32,389 nucleotides of DNA, taken from contig NZ_BAOL01000168.1 in NCBI RefSeq assembly GCF_000350145.1, positions 1 through 32,389 on the forward strand, written 5' to 3'. How positions within the stretch are numbered: the first letter of the stretch is position 1; every line of letters starts with the position of its first letter. Of the stretch, positions 4,292-12,276 are shown one piece after another. This DNA is from Ilumatobacter nonamiensis YM16-303. Lineage in GTDB: Bacteria; Actinomycetota; Acidimicrobiia; Acidimicrobiales; Ilumatobacteraceae. The notes beneath the pieces are model-generated. The model was given only the letters and a program-made list of their open reading frames with translations. It was not told where the DNA came from and made no database searches. A program made the translations under genes and the position numbers.

Positions 4292-6855
4292 CGGTCCTTC
4301 ATCCGCCGTGGCGGGGCAGACGCAGGGTCGTCGGGCCAGCGGTGTTTCGGATACCGGCCGGCCATCTCCTTCTTCACCTCGGTCCAGGTGCCACTCCAGA
4401 AACCGGGGAGGTCGGCGGTGACCTGGATCGGGCGGTCCGCAGGCGAGAGCAGCTCGAGTCGGATCGGGATGCCGCCGGCGGTCGGGTGCACGGTCACCCC
4501 GAACAGGTCCTGCACGCGAACCGAGGCGGTCGGTGCTTCGCCCGAGTAGTCGACGGGCACCGACCGACCCGTGGGGAGCTCGAGCGTGTCGGGCACGAGC
4601 CGTTCGAGGTCGCCGCCTTCGGGCCACGGGAGCTGCGATCGCAGCACCATCGCGACGTCGAGCGAGTCGAGGTCGCGACGTCCGGACGCACCGGGCAGGT
4701 ACGGAGCGAGCCACTCGTCGACCGACGCCACCAGCGCATCGACCGACCAGTCCGGCCACGGATCGCCGACGTTGCGGTGCAGGAACTCGACCCGCTCGCG
4801 CAACCGGGCCGCACTCGCCGACCATCCGAGCACGGCGAGACGGGTGTCTCGGACGCGACGCATCAGTGCGTCGGTCGTCTCGTCGCCGGGTTCCGGGCGA
4901 CGATCCTGGCTTCCGAGTCGAATCGCACCGAGCCGTCGCTCGACGGTCTCGACCAGCTCGTCGCGGTCGGTGTTCCACGACAGTGTCCGCTGTTCCTTGA
5001 TGTCATCCCCCGATGACGCGATGACATCATCGACGTCCACGGCGGCGGCGAGTCGGATGCGGGCGCGGTCGGCCTTTCCGTCGAGGTCGGCCGCGACCAC
5101 GAACGGCTCCTGGGCGAGCGGGTCCGTGTCGCGGATGAAGGCACCGCTCCCACCGCGCATCGTGTATTGGCCGGGTCGACGTCGACCGGCGAGTCGATCC
5201 GGGAAGGCCAGCATCAGAACCGCTCCGGTGCGATCGTGGTCGATCCGTTGGCGGTCGAAGTCGATCCCGACTCGGCGCGCGAGCTCTCGGGCACGGTCGC
5301 GCAGCCGGTGCACCGCGCCGCGGTCGGCGCGGTCGTGTCCCGCCGCGCCGGAGATCACCGCAACCCGGAGCGCCAGGTCGACCGGAAGCTCGTCGGGTCG
5401 CCCTCGGAACACGTCTCGTTCGTCGACGAGCGTCGCCACCACGCAGGCGAGCGGGGAGCGCTCGATGGCGACCATCCGGGCCAGCCGAGGATGGACCGGG
5501 AGCGCGAGCATGTCCCGACCGAGCGGGGTGAGGGCACCGCGATCGGCGTCGATGGCATGGAGGTCGACCAGCAGGTCGCGTGCCTGGCGCATCGCGCCGA
5601 TCGGTGGAGGATCGATGAACACCAGATCGCCGGTGGGTCGGTCGCGGTCGTTGCCGATGCCCCACGCCGCGAGTTCGAGAGCGAGCCCCGCGAGGTCGGC
5701 CTGCAGGATCTCGGGTGTGCGATGACGAGCGCGGGTTCCGTGCTCGAGCTTGCTCCAGAGTCGATACGCGGCGCCGGGTTCGGTGCGCCCGGCACGACCG
5801 GCACGTTGCTCGGCCGACGCGCGACTCGTCGACACCGTCGTGAGGCGGGTCATCCCGGTGCGGGCATCGAAGCGCGGCTCCCGGGCGAGCCCGGAGTCGA
5901 CCACGATCCGAACGCCATCGACGGTGAGCGAGGTCTCGGCGATGTCGGTGCTGAGCACGACCCGACGTCGCCCCGGCGGAGACGGTTGAAGCGCACGATC
6001 CTGTTCGTCCTGCGAGAGCGCGCCGGCGAGTGGGAGCACGTCGACGCCGTCGCCGAGAACTCGACCGAGTTGTTCCTGTGTGCGCTGGATCTCTCCGATC
6101 CCCGGAAGGAACGCCAGCACGTCACCCTCGTGCTCACTCAGCGCCTGGACGATCGCGGCCGTCATCGCCGGCTCGATCCGGTCCTGGGGGCCGGGGCGGC
6201 GTGGGCCGCGCTGCTTCCGGCCGCCGCCGCGCCTGCCCGAGGCGGCTGGTGACCGCGGAAGCCAGGTCATCTCGATGTCGAACGTGCGGCCCTCACTGAC
6301 GATCACCGGCGCATCGAGCACGCGCACGAGGCCCTCGGTGTCGGGTGTCGCCGACATCGCCAGGATTCGGAGCTCCGGCCGGATCGATCCGGCGACGTCG
6401 AGGGTCAGGGCGAGGCCGACGTCGGTCGGCAGGTTCCGCTCGTGGACCTCGTCGAAGATGATCGCTCCGACCCCGGGGAGTTCGGGATCGCGTTGGAGCC
6501 GCCGGGTGAGGATGCCTTCGGTGACGACTTCGATCCGGGTGTCGGGCCCGATGTGGCGCTCGTCGCGGGTCTGGTAGCCGACGAGGTCGCCGACGCGCGT
6601 CCCGGTCAGCGCGGCCATCCGCTGCGCGGCCGCCCGAGTGGCCAGTCGCCGCGGCTCGAGCATCACGATGCGCTGGTCTCCGAGCCACTCCGCGTCGAGC
6701 AGCGCGATCGGGACGACCGTCGTCTTGCCGGCTCCGGGAGGCGCCACGAGGACCACCCGCCGCTGTTCGGTCAGTGCTGCCTCGACCGCGAGCAGCGCGT
6801 CGAGAACCGGGAGATCGGGAAGTGGTCGCCGGTTGCCGGGGGCATCGCTGGTCAT
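4288..6855 (-). CDS. hrpB: ATP-dependent RNA helicase HrpB
   Basis: This is a DEAH/RHA-type superfamily 2 helicase of 855 aa, close to the usual HrpB length. Visible motifs are Walker A APPGAGKTT (38-46), the Walker B variant DEVH (135-138), SAT (168-170) and motif VI QRAGRAGR (350-357). The C-terminal region carries the HrpB-specific domain with conserved PxxW and YP.HRWP-like segments. A basic, glycine-rich insert lies at about 205-222. The bacterial role of HrpB is poorly defined; RNA remodelling is the family expectation. The ATG at 6855 precedes the first conserved segment, and the open frame further upstream to 7041 has no family character. It follows the thioredoxin-like gene by 37 nt and overlaps the TSUP gene by 4 nt. 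Confidence 0.9.
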   Translation of the reverse strand: MTSDAPGNRRPLPDLPVLDALLAVEAALTEQRRVVLVAPPGAGKTTVVPIALLDAEWLGDQRIVMLEPRRLATRAAAQRMAALTGTRVGDLVGYQTRDERHIGPDTRIEVVTEGILTRRLQRDPELPGVGAIIFDEVHERNLPTDVGLALTLDVAGSIRPELRILAMSATPDTEGLVRVLDAPVIVSEGRTFDIEMTWLPRSPAASGRRGGGRKQRGPRRPGPQDRIEPAMTAAIVQALSEHEGDVLAFLPGIGEIQRTQEQLGRVLGDGVDVLPLAGALSQDEQDRALQPSPPGRRRVVLSTDIAETSLTVDGVRIVVDSGLAREPRFDARTGMTRLTTVSTSRASAEQRAGRAGRTEPGAAYRLWSKLEHGTRARHRTPEILQADLAGLALELAAWGIGNDRDRPTGDLVFIDPPPIGAMRQARDLLVDLHAIDADRGALTPLGRDMLALPVHPRLARMVAIERSPLACVVATLVDERDVFRGRPDELPVDLALRVAVISGAAGHDRADRGAVHRLRDRARELARRVGIDFDRQRIDHDRTGAVLMLAFPDRLAGRRRPGQYTMRGGSGAFIRDTDPLAQEPFVVAADLDGKADRARIRLAAAVDVDDVIASSGDDIKEQRTLSWNTDRDELVETVERRLGAIRLGSQDRRPEPGDETTDALMRRVRDTRLAVLGWSASAARLRERVEFLHRNVGDPWPDWSVDALVASVDEWLAPYLPGASGRRDLDSLDVAMVLRSQLPWPEGGDLERLVPDTLELPTGRSVPVDYSGEAPTASVRVQDLFGVTVHPTAGGIPIRLELLSPADRPIQVTADLPGFWSGTWTEVKKEMAGRYPKHRWPDDPASAPPRRMKDR

Positions 6856-6892
6856 CGGCCAGCGCCCACGGATCGAACGTGACGAGGAATGA

Positions 6893-7414
6893 TCAGCCGA
6901 GCGCCGGCGAGCCGTGGAACGGAACGGGATCGCCGGCCGCGGGCAGCTCGATCGACGACCACTTGGTGATGCGCGCGATTGCGTCGCACACCTGCTCCCA
7001 CTCGTCGGGCTTCCAGCCTTCGGCCTTGGCGTCGATGACACCGTCGACGCGGGTCAACACGAACGCGGGGAGCTCGGTCAGATGCATCGCCTTCACGGTG
7101 TCACGGTTCGGGTCACAGAACACGAGGAACCGGTCGGCGAGCGGCCCGAGGAATTGGGCCGCGTCGTCCGGTCCGGCGGTGACGATCAGGTTGGTCCGTA
7201 CGTCGCAGTCCCGGAATTCCTGGAGCACGCGGGTCGCGGTGCGCAGGATCCACGACGACTCGTTCGTGTACGGATCGAGCACGACCGAGGCCAAGTGGAA
7301 CGTCGTCAACCACTCCATCACGGGACGGCTCGTTCCCGCGGCGCCCTTGGTCAGGGGGGTGAGGGAGAGGTCGGTCGGAAGCTTGATGTCCGAGTTCGTT
7401 TCGGTGACGGCCAC
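6893..7414 (-). CDS. Thioredoxin-fold protein lacking a CXXC motif
   Basis: This 173-aa protein has the outline of a thioredoxin or peroxiredoxin-like domain: strand VVLDPY, a helix, strand TNLIVTAG, strand RFLVFCDP, the cis-proline-like segment TELPAFVLT, then VDGVIDAKAEGW and a final helix. The position where thioredoxins carry CXXC instead reads YTNESSW, so dithiol redox chemistry is unlikely. A binding or structural role is inferred. The GTG at 7414 is chosen because TATCAT, a -10 hexamer, lies 7 nt upstream, giving a leaderless start; no ATG exists before the conserved region. It is first in an operon with hrpB and the TSUP gene, and divergent from the eIF-2B-like gene. Confidence 0.72.
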   Translation of the reverse strand: MAVTETNSDIKLPTDLSLTPLTKGAAGTSRPVMEWLTTFHLASVVLDPYTNESSWILRTATRVLQEFRDCDVRTNLIVTAGPDDAAQFLGPLADRFLVFCDPNRDTVKAMHLTELPAFVLTRVDGVIDAKAEGWKPDEWEQVCDAIARITKWSSIELPAAGDPVPFHGSPALG

Positions 7415-7421
7415 GCGGCGA

Positions 7422-7468
7422 ATGATAGCGGCGCGCCTTGGCGCCGACCGCTTTGCGTGCCGTACGTT
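7422..7468. promoter_or_regulatory. Divergent leaderless promoter pair with central dyad
   Basis: TATCAT on the minus strand (7427-7422) is 7 nt from the GTG at 7414. TACGTT on the plus strand (7463-7468) is 6 nt from the GTG at 7475. Between them an inverted repeat, CGGCGC (7429-7434) and GCGCCG (7441-7446), flanks a 6-nt centre. Both transcripts would begin at the start codon. A regulator binding the dyad could control both directions; that part is inferred. Confidence 0.45.
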
Positions 7469-7474
7469 GGCAAG

Positions 7475-8287
7475 GTGCATCCGATCGAGCATCTCCGCTA
7501 CGTCGCACGAGCCCACGGTGTCGATCCGGCCGGGTTGGTGTCCGAGACGGCGCACGCCCTCGGATCGATGCACTTCGACGCCGCCGGTCTCGTGGTCGCG
7601 TGTCGCCGGATCGTCGAGCGGCATCCCTTCGCAGGTCCGCTCTGGTGGTTGTGCGCCAACGTCGCCACCTCGTCGGAGCCGTTCGACGCCGTGTGGGAGC
7701 TGGCCGAGCAGGTGCACTCCGACCGGACCGCGTCGGAGCTGGCGGCCGCGCTGCCCGACGAAGCTGACGTGGTGACGATCGGCGACCCGAGCGTGATCGG
7801 TTCCGGCCTCGCCCGCCGCGGTGACGTCCGCGTCCTGGCGCTCGACATCGACCATTCGGCGACGTCGTTCGTCCGGCGCCTCGAACGCAACGACGTGGAC
7901 TACGAGCCGGTCGACGCGGGTGCGGCGGGCACGGTCGCGCAGGTTGCCGACGTCGTGCTCGTCGAGGCATTGGCGTTGGATGCCGACCGGGTGATCGTGC
8001 CGTCGGGGTCGACCACGATCGCCGCCTGTGCCGCGGCGTTCGACACCCCGGTCTGGCTCGTCGCGGGTATCGGTCGACGGTTGCCGACCGAGTTCATCGA
8101 CGCAATGGTCGTCCGACGCGACGCGATCGCGGCCGATCAGGACGAGTGGACGATCGACGTGGAGGTGCTCCCGACCCGGCTCGTCACCGACATCGTCGGC
8201 CCCCACGGCATCATGCCGATGGGTCCACCCGCGGCCCGCCCCGAGTGCCCCCTCGCCGCAGAACTCCTCCGCACCCCCGCCATGTGA
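7475..8287 (+). CDS. eIF-2B-like (ISOCOT fold) protein of unknown substrate
   Basis: This 270-aa protein has a helical N-terminal half (to about residue 95) and a C-terminal Rossmann-like half. The C-terminal half carries features of the eIF-2B alpha/methylthioribose-1-phosphate isomerase family: a strand ending VVTIGDPS, VRVLALDID, and especially VIVPSGSTTIAACAAAFDTPVWLVAG, the equivalent of the family's conserved GTxxxAxxAxxxxxPVxV segment. It is shorter than true MtnA (about 340 aa), so an isomerase function is not assured. The GTG at 7475 follows a TACGTT -10 by 6 nt. It is transcribed away from the helicase operon and ends 12 nt before the inverted-repeat unit. Confidence 0.65.
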   Translation: MHPIEHLRYVARAHGVDPAGLVSETAHALGSMHFDAAGLVVACRRIVERHPFAGPLWWLCANVATSSEPFDAVWELAEQVHSDRTASELAAALPDEADVVTIGDPSVIGSGLARRGDVRVLALDIDHSATSFVRRLERNDVDYEPVDAGAAGTVAQVADVVLVEALALDADRVIVPSGSTTIAACAAAFDTPVWLVAGIGRRLPTEFIDAMVVRRDAIAADQDEWTIDVEVLPTRLVTDIVGPHGIMPMGPPAARPECPLAAELLRTPAM

Positions 8288-8303
8288 GGTGACCTCCTGC
8301 CCC

Positions 8304-8353
8304 GTTTGCGTTGTACTTCTGGTTCCTCTGCGCACCAGAAGTACAACGCAAAC
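8304..8353. repeat. 50-bp palindromic repeat, copy 1 (perfect 20-bp arms)
   Basis: GTTTGCGTTGTACTTCTGGT (8304-8323) and its exact reverse complement (8334-8353) enclose a 10-nt loop. The repeat lies between the convergent stop codons at 8287 and 8355, so the long stem could also end transcription from both sides. It shares its outer sequence and total length with the copy at 9301-9350. Confidence 0.85.
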
Positions 8354-8354
8354 G

Positions 8355-9258
8355 TCAGGAGAGGCGGCGTCGGAGGTCGGCGGCGATCCAGACCGGTTGT
8401 CCGAAGACCTGGGTCGAGGTGTACTCGATGACGGTGCAGCCGAGATCCTGCAGCTCATTGCGACGTTGAGCGTCCCGGGCGCGCTCCGCGTCGGAGACAT
8501 GTCCGAGTCGCCCGGTCACCTCGACGACCAAGCGGTGGTCGACGAACTCGAAGTCGACCCGGGCGACGTGGCGACCCTGGTGGTCGCGGTGGACGACCTG
8601 CGTGCGCGGTCGGGGCAGTCCGGCCTCCCGGATGATCCGGAGCAAGCGCCGCTCGAGCGGTGAGTGGCCCCCGGAGTCGGGGAGGAGCCGGTCGATCAGC
8701 CGGCATCCCCAACGGCCCGATCCGCGCAGGGTCTCCAGGCGGGTGGCGAGCACCCGTGGATGCGAGAGGCCCAGGCGGATCGCACTGTCCATCGCCGCTT
8801 CCACCCTCCGGCGGGGCGCTCGTGCGTGCGCGAGATCGATGATGGTGCGGGTCGCCGAGGTCGCCCGCAGTCCGTCGACGACGACGGCGTCAACCGGAGC
8901 GAACATGGACGTCGTGTGCACCCGAAAGCCGTGCCGTGGCGGCGTCGCGGCGCGGGGAATCGTGAACTCCACGGCGGTGTCGTCGCTGCGGTCCAGTCCG
9001 TGCAGCGAGGCGGCGGATTCGTAGCTGATGCGGCTGTCGTCGCCGAGGCAGAGCAGGCCGATGCGGAGGCGCTGGCGATGCGAGTCCGGCGCCCCGGCGA
9101 TGCGATACACCCGTGGCGCCACCTTCTCCAGCCATCCACGCTCGGTGAGCCGGCGCCGCTGCGCCCCGCGAGAGCCCGTTCAGATCTCTCGCACCGAGGA
9201 GACCATCCTGCTGCGCGGCGATGCATGTGAGCGCCCGGACATCGATCGGTGTGGCCAC
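8355..9258 (-). pseudogene. Frameshifted AbiEi-like wHTH / DUF559 (Vsr-like) endonuclease gene
   Basis: The gene resembles actinobacterial proteins that join an AbiEi-type N-terminal winged helix to a C-terminal DUF559/Vsr-like PD-(D/E)XK nuclease. The N-terminal part (GTG at 9258; VATPIDVRALTCIAAQQDG, then DLNGLSR) is in one frame. From RRRLTERGWLEKVAPRVYRIAG onward the protein continues in the next frame. The switch falls at a run of four C (9164-9167; GGGG in the gene). Removing one G restores a 300-aa protein, a usual length for the family. The nuclease region has SPLERR, VDFEF and LVVEVTG, where relatives usually have E-x-D-G. It may be a true pseudogene, a sequencing error or a frameshifted product. 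An internal GTG at 9122 could express the part without the wHTH. Confidence 0.7.
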
Positions 9259-9268
9259 ACCCACCACG

Positions 9269-9280
9269 GGGTCGTGACCC
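9269..9280. promoter_or_regulatory. Dyad GGGTC-GT-GACCC upstream of the nuclease gene
   Basis: This 5-bp-arm palindrome is centred about 16 nt upstream of the GTG at 9258, between that start codon and the right-hand repeat. AbiEi-type winged-helix proteins are known to bind inverted repeats in their own promoters, so an autoregulatory operator is possible but unproven. Confidence 0.3.
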
Positions 9281-9300
9281 GCCCCCAACCGGAAAACCAC

Positions 9301-9350
9301 GTTTGCGTTGCGGAAATGGTTGGCGGAACGACCAGAAGTACAACGCAAAC
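9301..9350. repeat. 50-bp palindromic repeat, copy 2 (interrupted arms)
   Basis: The right arm (9331-9350) is identical to that of the copy at 8304-8353. The left arm keeps the outer 10 bases GTTTGCGTTG and an inner TGGT, but the 6 bases between them differ. The stem is therefore 10 bp, a 6x6 internal loop, then 4 bp, with a 10-nt loop. Total length is again exactly 50 bp, which shows the two are copies of one element. Confidence 0.82.
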
Positions 9351-9382
9351 GGGGTTGCGGGCGGGTGGAGAGTGGCGGTGGA

Positions 9383-9415
9383 GGGAGGGGTCAGAGGGGG
9401 CGGCGGCGGGGTGGG
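9383..9415 (+). other. Potential G-quadruplex run
   Basis: Five runs of three or more G (GGG, GGGG, GGGGG, GGGG, GGG), separated by 1-7 nt, lie on the plus strand. They cover the 3' end of the small DUF2007-like gene and the adjoining spacer next to the repeat-bounded unit. This satisfies the usual G3+N1-7 pattern. Folding is not demonstrated, and base composition alone could produce it. Confidence 0.35.
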
Positions 9416-9696
9416 TGGCCGAGGAGGTCCTCGACCAGCTGCTGCGCTTCGGCCTGGCGATCCTCGGTGACGAAGATGCGCGCCATCGGCTCCCGGGTGT
9501 ACATCGTGAGGTTGATGTTGAAGTCGTCCACGACCACGGCGGGGATGCCCGCTGCAACGAGTTCGTCGGTCACCATCCGGCTCAGGAACTGGGGCAACCA
9601 GGCGGCTTCGACGGTCTTGTCGGCGTTCGGCGGGTCGACGGGATCCCGCCCGCGGATCCAGTCCCACAGTTCTCCGAAGGTCCGTGGCGTGCTCAC
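9391..9696 (-). CDS. Small DUF2007-like (putative signal-transducing) protein
   Basis: This is a 101-aa protein. Its second half reads as the compact alpha/beta domain of DUF2007 proteins: a helix ending in DELVAAGIPAVVVDD, then PMARIFVTEDRQAEAQQLVEDLLG, with the typical LxxxGIPAxV and VxxED..EAxxLL spacing. The first half, TFGELWDWIRGRDPVDPP, is polar and unassigned. Family function is not established; a role in sensing or metal and nucleotide binding has been suggested for relatives only by annotation. GTG at 9696 is the only sensible start. A TAACAT hexamer (9711-9706) ends 9 nt upstream and may be its -10 element. It is divergent from the catabolic operon. Confidence 0.65.
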   Translation of the reverse strand: MSTPRTFGELWDWIRGRDPVDPPNADKTVEAAWLPQFLSRMVTDELVAAGIPAVVVDDFNINLTMYTREPMARIFVTEDRQAEAQQLVEDLLGHPPRRRPL

Positions 9697-12195: not shown

Positions 12196-12213
12196 TCGAG
12201 CAGCGCGCCAACG

Positions 12214-12226
12214 GGTGTCAGACACC
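12214..12226. repeat. Intergenic 13-bp dyad, copy 3 (GGTGYC-N-GRCACC family)
   Basis: GGTGTCAGACACC is a perfect dyad around a central A, in the 81-nt gap between the hydantoinase and semialdehyde dehydrogenase genes. As in the other copies, a GATG follows directly. The ATG at 12229 within it is not the true start of the next gene. Confidence 0.5.
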
Positions 12227-12276
12227 GGATGGCGCACATCGGACAACGGGTGCATCACGGAAAGAAGACGGGAATC

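Follow-up and report, generated by a model that had tools for sequence, protein, structure and literature searches.

The window analysed here is a stretch of 32,389 nucleotides from Ilumatobacter nonamiensis YM16-303 (contig NZ_BAOL01000168.1), and its top inverted repeat encloses a single gene. The two arms of this repeat are 24 nt long and lie 1.05 kb apart on the forward strand: the left arm (8300–8323) consists of CCCC followed by GTTTGCGTTGTACTTCTGGT and is the exact complement of the right arm (9331–9354), which reads ACCAGAAGTACAACGCAAAC followed by GGGG. The preliminary description of this locus reported these exact repeats and the one gene between them, and both are confirmed; it also took the 24-bp repeats as the ends of an element, which has to be revised. 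Both arms belong to 50-bp palindromes (20 + 10 + 20), of which they form the outer halves, and it is the palindromes of about 50 bp, at 8304–8353 and 9301–9350, that form the ends. The left palindrome has perfect 20-bp arms around a 10-nt centre and lies between the stops of two convergent genes; in the right palindrome, the inner (left) arm has decayed to GTTTGCGTTG with mismatches.

The enclosed gene is of the AbiEi/DUF559 nuclease type and occupies 8355–9258 on the reverse strand. Its stop is 1 nt from the left palindrome and a possible GTG start at 9258, read from the frame, is 42 nt from the right palindrome, in agreement with the spacing first described. The gene carries one frameshift, such that a frame of 255 amino acids covers 8355–9122 and the N-terminal piece is out of frame. 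Comparison with an intact homologue (locus L093, see below) places the frameshift at approximately 9176–9190, and the window copy is therefore probably broken, barring an assembly error. The left neighbour (7457–8287, forward strand) has no Pfam hit, and the right neighbour (9391–9696, reverse strand) is DUF2007-like with a score under the curated cut-off. Elsewhere in the window, positions 3–34 and 12201–12232 form an inverted pair on GGTGTCAGRCACC (32 nt, 84% complementary, 12 kb apart).

The product of the window gene matches DUF559 (Pfam, E 2.5e-5) and AbiEi models. Judged by sequence comparison, the protein is an AbiEi-like part joined to a domain resembling Vsr and the EDxHD homing endonucleases. 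AbiEi models of the PADLOC library match all 26 aligned members of the family; the AbiEi part covers about the first 170 of 296 residues and is followed by the conserved nuclease domain. A profile of the 26 members matches 3hrl (endonuclease-like, 2e-10), 3r3p (‘mobile intron protein’, 1.6e-5), 6y8q (‘abortive phage infection protein’, 6e-4) and 9hlo (AbiGI), and more weakly Vsr itself (1cw0, 0.013); we take 3r3p to be I-Bth0305I. Among 60 genes with matching flanks, E199 is conserved in 55, D231 and E242 in 60, and H249 and D258 in 58; whether or not a gene is flanked, D231 and E242 are invariant and the other three residues almost invariant. The E, D, H and D residues are equated with the EDxHD motif on the strength of the family name. 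Pfam searches of eight nuclease proteins returned DUF559, MTES_1575 and AbiEi_4, with one additional sub-threshold transglutaminase-like match in the window protein, and no Y1/HUH domain. No recognised transposase family was found in the element proteins scanned, and no relatives on viral contigs were confirmed using the window protein as query. A single-sequence fold of the window protein was too poor to use (pLDDT 48.7).

Palindromes in Ilumatobacter and its relatives

Genomes and loci are designated below by G and L numbers, G000 being the genome of the window. A search of this 4.28-Mb genome with the arm, allowing up to three mismatches, gave 22 matches versus none for a reversed control pattern. 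The 22 matches make up 14 palindromes, and a covariance model built from them recovered the same 14; these copies are not chance. Twelve of them are solo. The preliminary description had regarded the CCCC/GGGG extensions as a feature of the outermost ends; since CCC beside the left arm and GGG beside the right arm each occur in nine of the 14 copies, they do not mark special terminal repeats. Nuclease-type genes in G000 amount to three DUF559 loci, four in a protein search and five matches in a profile search, and because there are only three to five of these against 14 palindromes, most palindromes have no adjoining nuclease.

Other palindromes are also present in this genome. A second G000 nuclease (L073, contig C397) has a different palindrome upstream, GTTCTCGTCGCGC..., at 5352–5427, and a solo palindrome similar to it lies on another contig (L063, 1341–1383); these are possibly a second family within G000. 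Another near-perfect palindrome, GCGTTACGT...ACGTAACGC, is found on two contigs (L069, 6742–6776; L072, 7173–7209).

The covariance model matched eight of 40 genomes, own included: G000, G004, G005, G006 and G008 in the genus, G032 in the order, where there are many copies, and, weakly, G019 and G026. Across the matched genomes the layout is kept and the arm sequences diverge. There was no match in G001, G002, G003, G007 or G009; G007 has its own palindrome, which the model does not detect. Dispersed copies are found in G000 (14), G004, G005, G006, G032 and G007 (12 clusters).

The G007 palindrome has 14-bp arms, GTTTGTGTGACCGA, and spans 49 bp wherever both arms were matched; its centre shows no self-complementarity on inspection by eye. 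In this genome, which is one contig, there are 41 arm matches versus none for the control, and they form 12 clusters. One cluster brackets a nuclease gene, with two palindromes on each side, and there are eleven further clusters. Eleven of the 12 clusters were read, the one with the nuclease among them, and none of these falls inside a called gene. G032 disperses the palindrome GGTTCTGGCACCAGATCTGGTCGCC (L094–L103), which is unlike the palindromes bracketing the L187 nuclease and matches neither of the two G032 nucleases read, in a genome that is 70% complete. None of the G005 loci read yielded a nuclease, in a single-protein search that also missed a known homologue in L072. Two palindromes at G005 locus L079 (2434–3642) lie 1.1 kb apart around two overlapping frames that have no Pfam or NCBIfam match at E ≤ 0.01 and are perhaps other cargo or a decayed unit. 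At L074 (4385–4661), in the same genome, two palindromes lie 177 bp apart between homologues of two genes that in G004 and G006 enclose a single palindrome, and this pair is perhaps a deleted unit. An 80-nt tandem run of CCAGCTGG units is present in G006 (L093, 2144–2223).

When named genomes were scanned with the outer motif, 37 stretches were obtained, 23 in Ilumatobacter, two in Ilumatobacteraceae, two in Actinomycetota and ten in other phyla. Several of the last ten look unrelated by eye, but the one in Geofilum rhodophaeum (L250, 4416–4467) is clearly a palindrome, near-perfect and 52 nt long, and carries the outer CGTTTGTGT motif as well. According to heuristic gene calls, 22 of 59 elements lie between convergent genes, 31 between co-directional and four between divergent genes, with one at a contig edge and one inside a called gene. 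Units and solo palindromes are thus nearly always intergenic.

Occupied and empty sites

A second unit, which is intact, lies in G006 (L093), where a frame of 296 codons is found between palindromes at 5884–5933 and 6871–6920, downstream of glyA and upstream of a wecA-like gene; we presume these two gene names, and queA and tgt below, from the sequence. At the same site, G004 has both palindromes with about 180 N-terminal codons absent, an internally deleted unit. The glyA and wecA genes lie close together with no unit in G001, G003, G007, G010 and G011. This comparison covers 11 of 22 loci, and G000, G005, G008 and G009 are uninformative, glyA being not found or separated.

The window site gives a comparable picture. 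A broken unit occupies the orthologous site in G006 (L088) and a remnant with one palindrome that in G008; in G007 and G013 the two neighbour genes nearly abut, with no palindrome and no nuclease gene. The DUF2007-like gene is present in nine genomes, counting the window's own; in G001, G002, G003 and G009 the left neighbour was not found beside it, making these four uninformative (the G009 contig ends there). The first 62 bases of L197 hold this G009 contig end, which comes a few bases into a possible CAAAC arm; repeats may be what breaks assemblies there.

Solo palindromes were compared at two of three queried sites; for the third there was a single good match beyond G000. Between queA and tgt, G000 has a solo palindrome that five congeners (G001, G002, G003, G004 and G006) lack, the two genes nearly abutting there; it is likewise absent from three genomes outside the genus in which the next gene was found. 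The extra DNA in G000 amounts to approximately 105–113 bp, the relatives being too diverged to fix its ends. At the second site, only G002 of seven other genomes retains the neighbour, and it has no palindrome. No target-site duplication was identified, the ends of the queA/tgt insertion being obscured by this divergence. Comparison with relatives therefore shows that the units and solo palindromes look like insertions, present where relatives have none.

Flanking palindromes across the Actinomycetota

A search with the L093 protein found matches in 120 of 298 genomes of the order, and a profile search found matches in 116 of 396 genomes of the phylum at E ≤ 1e-25. Flanks were taken from high-scoring loci only. 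A first set of 73 loci was reduced to 65, after six without a tblastn match (L171, L172, L181, L186, L187 and L072) and two over-long frames were removed. A second set of 144 loci was reduced to 136 by removing eight repeats of the same gene and to 131 by length and flank limits, and 130 distinct genes with both flanks entered the pairing test.

Pairing was measured as the best match between the 250 nt upstream and the 250 nt downstream of a gene, with a threshold of at least 25. This threshold was reached by 60 of 130 nuclease genes versus 11 of 780 mismatched pairings. Among 163 called genes of similar size in large loci, the same measure gave two positives, one of which is itself such a nuclease, the sole one among the 163, leaving one of 162 other genes. 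The result is similar (55 of 123) without seven genes that were found or chosen via palindromes or are the window genome's own (L093, L072, L073, L186, L189 and L190) or that are the window gene (L303). Pairing is seen in 38 of 71 genes of the order (control 13 of 568), in two of three of the same class and in 20 of 56 from other classes of the phylum (control 0 of 448). The other 70 of the 130 genes score below 25, so that many homologues lack matching flanks as measured here. Some pairs are overlooked by the measure: the window's own unit scores only 13.5, probably due to a misplaced gene end.

The palindromes concentrate at the ends of these genes. Scored as palindromes alone, at least one lies near an end in 44 of 131 genes and both ends carry one in 12; their density is 60 in 67.9 kb near gene ends, six in 298.6 kb away from them and six in 111.8 kb inside genes. 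Some loci have tandem palindromes on one side (for example, L126, L135, L137 and L297). The sequences are lineage-specific, and the layout is kept: the median span is 49 bp (45–53 bp in 46 of 60), the upstream palindrome precedes the inferred start by a median of 54 nt and the downstream palindrome begins at a median of 4.5 nt past the stop. No Pfam family is common to more than three of 43 neighbouring proteins (25 of 65 families shown, mostly metabolic or housekeeping).

The preliminary description had proposed a repeat-nuclease element analogous to REP-RAYT, in Acidimicrobiia. This proposal is partly supported: by the family-wide bracketing, which is far above background, by solo repeats in the window genome and in G007, and by relatives whose orthologous sites lack the whole unit (G007 and G013 at the window site, five genomes at glyA/wecA) or the solo repeat. 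Recognition of the hairpins by the nuclease, which the preliminary description also suggested, would be a further, putative property. The element is indeed found in Acidimicrobiia, and the association extends to other classes of the phylum. A distribution of repeats unrelated to that of the nuclease had been named as an observation that would refute the proposal; locally this is what is seen, most copies of the window genome being solo, but the family-wide bracketing contradicts it, and a predominance of solo repeats in a genome is likewise the pattern of REP-RAYT.

Known systems, competing explanations and a putative mechanism

The likeness to REP-RAYT systems is the most extensive. REP sequences are outlined in PMC3733652 as palindromes of 20–40 bp, found mainly after genes and often in close pairs, with a RAYT gene flanked by repeats and some families being species-specific. 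Palindromes dispersed mainly after genes and often in close pairs, some species-specific families of repeats and a repeat-flanked enzyme gene are shared by the element described here, and in G000 and G007 the dispersed extragenic palindromes match those that flank the enzyme gene. The differences lie in the enzyme, which here is an AbiEi plus Vsr/EDxHD-like nuclease that lacks a Y1 HUH domain in all eight proteins searched, and in the length of the palindromes, about 49–50 bp compared with the 20–40 bp given for REP. Inspection of the 14 G000 copies by eye revealed no GTAG or CGTC tag at a palindrome end.

The other systems are matched in part. With the EDxHD homing endonuclease I-Bth0305I, the nuclease shares the catalytic domain, by profile, and the conserved E, D, H and D residues, and the very long target of that enzyme, nearly 60 bp (PMC3943268), is comparable. 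The unit here differs in that it is not in an intron or intein, the DNA-binding part is AbiEi-like, and putative target palindromes are kept on both sides (in L093, and in the window, where the right one is decayed) in place of one split site. AbiEi antitoxins share the N-terminal AbiEi match and an operator that is an inverted repeat of 49 bp (PMC7319586); here, in contrast, the AbiEi part is fused to a nuclease, no AbiEii partner was seen, and palindromes both flank the gene and are dispersed. The element resembles insertion sequences and MITEs in being a single gene, of roughly 1 kb, enclosed by inverted ends, in having an internally deleted derivative (G004) and solo derivatives, and in presence–absence at orthologous sites, but no known transposase family was found and no target-site duplication was identified. 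Among the families tested, there is none whose full definition fits the element, and no published description was found among titles and abstract openings in the open-licence literature. The recurrence of the bracket with differing palindromes and the insertion-like pattern of units and solo copies suggest an undescribed kind of mobile DNA, and there is a fair chance that the element will prove to be a class of its own.

We consider that 8304–9350 is probably, though by no means surely, a copy of a mobile repeat-nuclease element, likely disabled by its frameshift, in which an AbiEi plus Vsr/EDxHD-type nuclease gene is bracketed by its cognate palindromes of about 50 bp. The existence of such a mobile element is well supported by the comparison of genomes, and the nuclease probably takes part in moving it. 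The chief alternative is that the palindromes are moved in trans by another enzyme, RAYT-type or an unknown transposase, and that the nuclease is cargo, as in composite elements. The 12 palindromes without an adjoining nuclease in G000 would fit, as would the presence of Y1_Tnp genes in G000 and in seven of nine congeners, a 7.1-kb contig of G005 (C296, L251) that has a palindrome at 1709–1760 and a Y1_Tnp gene at 6682–7014, about 5 kb apart, and the dispersed G032 palindrome, which corresponds to neither of the two nucleases read in that genome. However, Y1_Tnp genes, found in ten of 40 genomes (own included), are absent at E ≤ 0.001 from G008 and G032, both of which bear palindromes; ten Y1_Tnp loci (out of 19 matches), taken with flanks of up to 1.5 kb, contain none of the four known arms, even with as many as four mismatches allowed. 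A RAYT was rejected as the mobiliser on these grounds. Unit neighbours are moreover varied, and cargo would not explain why one gene family is repeatedly bracketed by unrelated palindromes. We regard mobilisation in trans as unlikely.

Less probable again is that the palindromes are operators, with the AbiEi-like domain repressing its own gene through the upstream palindrome and the remaining copies forming a regulon. AbiEi autorepressors do bind inverted repeats of equal span (PMC7319586), and the upstream palindromes lie close before the inferred start. Such a role is hard to reconcile with a downstream palindrome that begins a few nucleotides past the stop, with the position of most solo copies after gene ends (only four of the 59 elements are between divergent genes) and with the queA/tgt copy, an insertion absent in relatives; autoregulation could nonetheless coexist with mobility. 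A stand-alone AbiEi antitoxin, belonging to a type IV toxin-antitoxin or defence operon, would account for the PADLOC matches to every member scanned, but none of 43 neighbouring proteins at 27 loci (43 of 50 neighbours found) matches an AbiEii toxin, and the AbiEi part is followed by a conserved nuclease domain, so that this explanation is most improbable. We give just as little credence to ordinary transcription terminators that are alike by chance or by selection. Many copies do lie directly past stop codons, but they share sequence beyond their shape, vary from species to species, are lacking at orthologous sites and pair around one gene family far more often than around other genes.

Concerning mechanism, we conclude that the mobile element would work like REP-RAYT with an unrelated enzyme, and we infer that the nuclease may bind, cut or move the palindromes. 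A nuclease dimer on two half-sites is the simplest reading. In one known AbiEi operator a 3-bp gap separates a pair of 23-bp inverted repeats, which makes 49 bp in all, and a second operator has wider spacing (PMC7319586); I-Bth0305I dimerises on its target (PMC3943268). The arms of the G000 and G005 palindromes vary independently, covariation being no better than in shuffles, which fits two protein half-sites. The arms in G032 do covary (none of 500 shuffles was as good), which favours a hairpin there and does not fit the half-site reading. A conserved RNA hairpin was rejected for G000 and G005 on this covariation result, which is the opposite of that in G032, and Rfam returned only matches far under gathering scores, mostly to animal microRNA models. 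Across 68 units, the similarity of palindromes correlated with that of the nuclease half (partial r 0.15, Mantel p 0.008) and less with that of the AbiEi half (0.08, p 0.11), the flanks including neighbouring genes, which confounds both values. The AbiEi half as sole reader of the palindrome was thus unsupported, the nuclease half correlating better. By eye, there was no clean pattern of palindrome type tracking nuclease rather than host in G006.

In the proposed cycle, the AbiEi-like parts of two protein molecules would bind the two half-sites of a palindrome and the nuclease domain would cut or nick there. Repair of the break, templated by another palindrome or unit, could then copy the unit or leave a solo palindrome, and solo palindromes would be both footprints and future targets. 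Double cutting at both flanking palindromes could excise the unit instead. Repair alone would not account for the entry of palindromes at palindrome-free sites. In its broadest form, this would be a new class of selfish DNA, mobilised by its own product: a Vsr/EDxHD-fold nuclease with an AbiEi-type reader would recognise palindromes of about 50 bp as a dimer, cut at them and spread both a one-gene unit and solo copies, with each nuclease lineage evolving its own palindrome: a parallel to REP-RAYT that uses restriction-type chemistry. We hold this full scenario tentatively, as possible and somewhat short of an even chance.

AbiEi/DUF559-type genes are common in Actinomycetota, as the profile search of the phylum indicates, and PADLOC labels them as AbiEi, part of defence. 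If many of them are mobile nucleases with their own target palindromes, the AbiEi label would mislead. A source of dispersed palindromes in these genomes would also be identified, and a set of natural nucleases, every one with a long site specific to its lineage, would be available for direct test.
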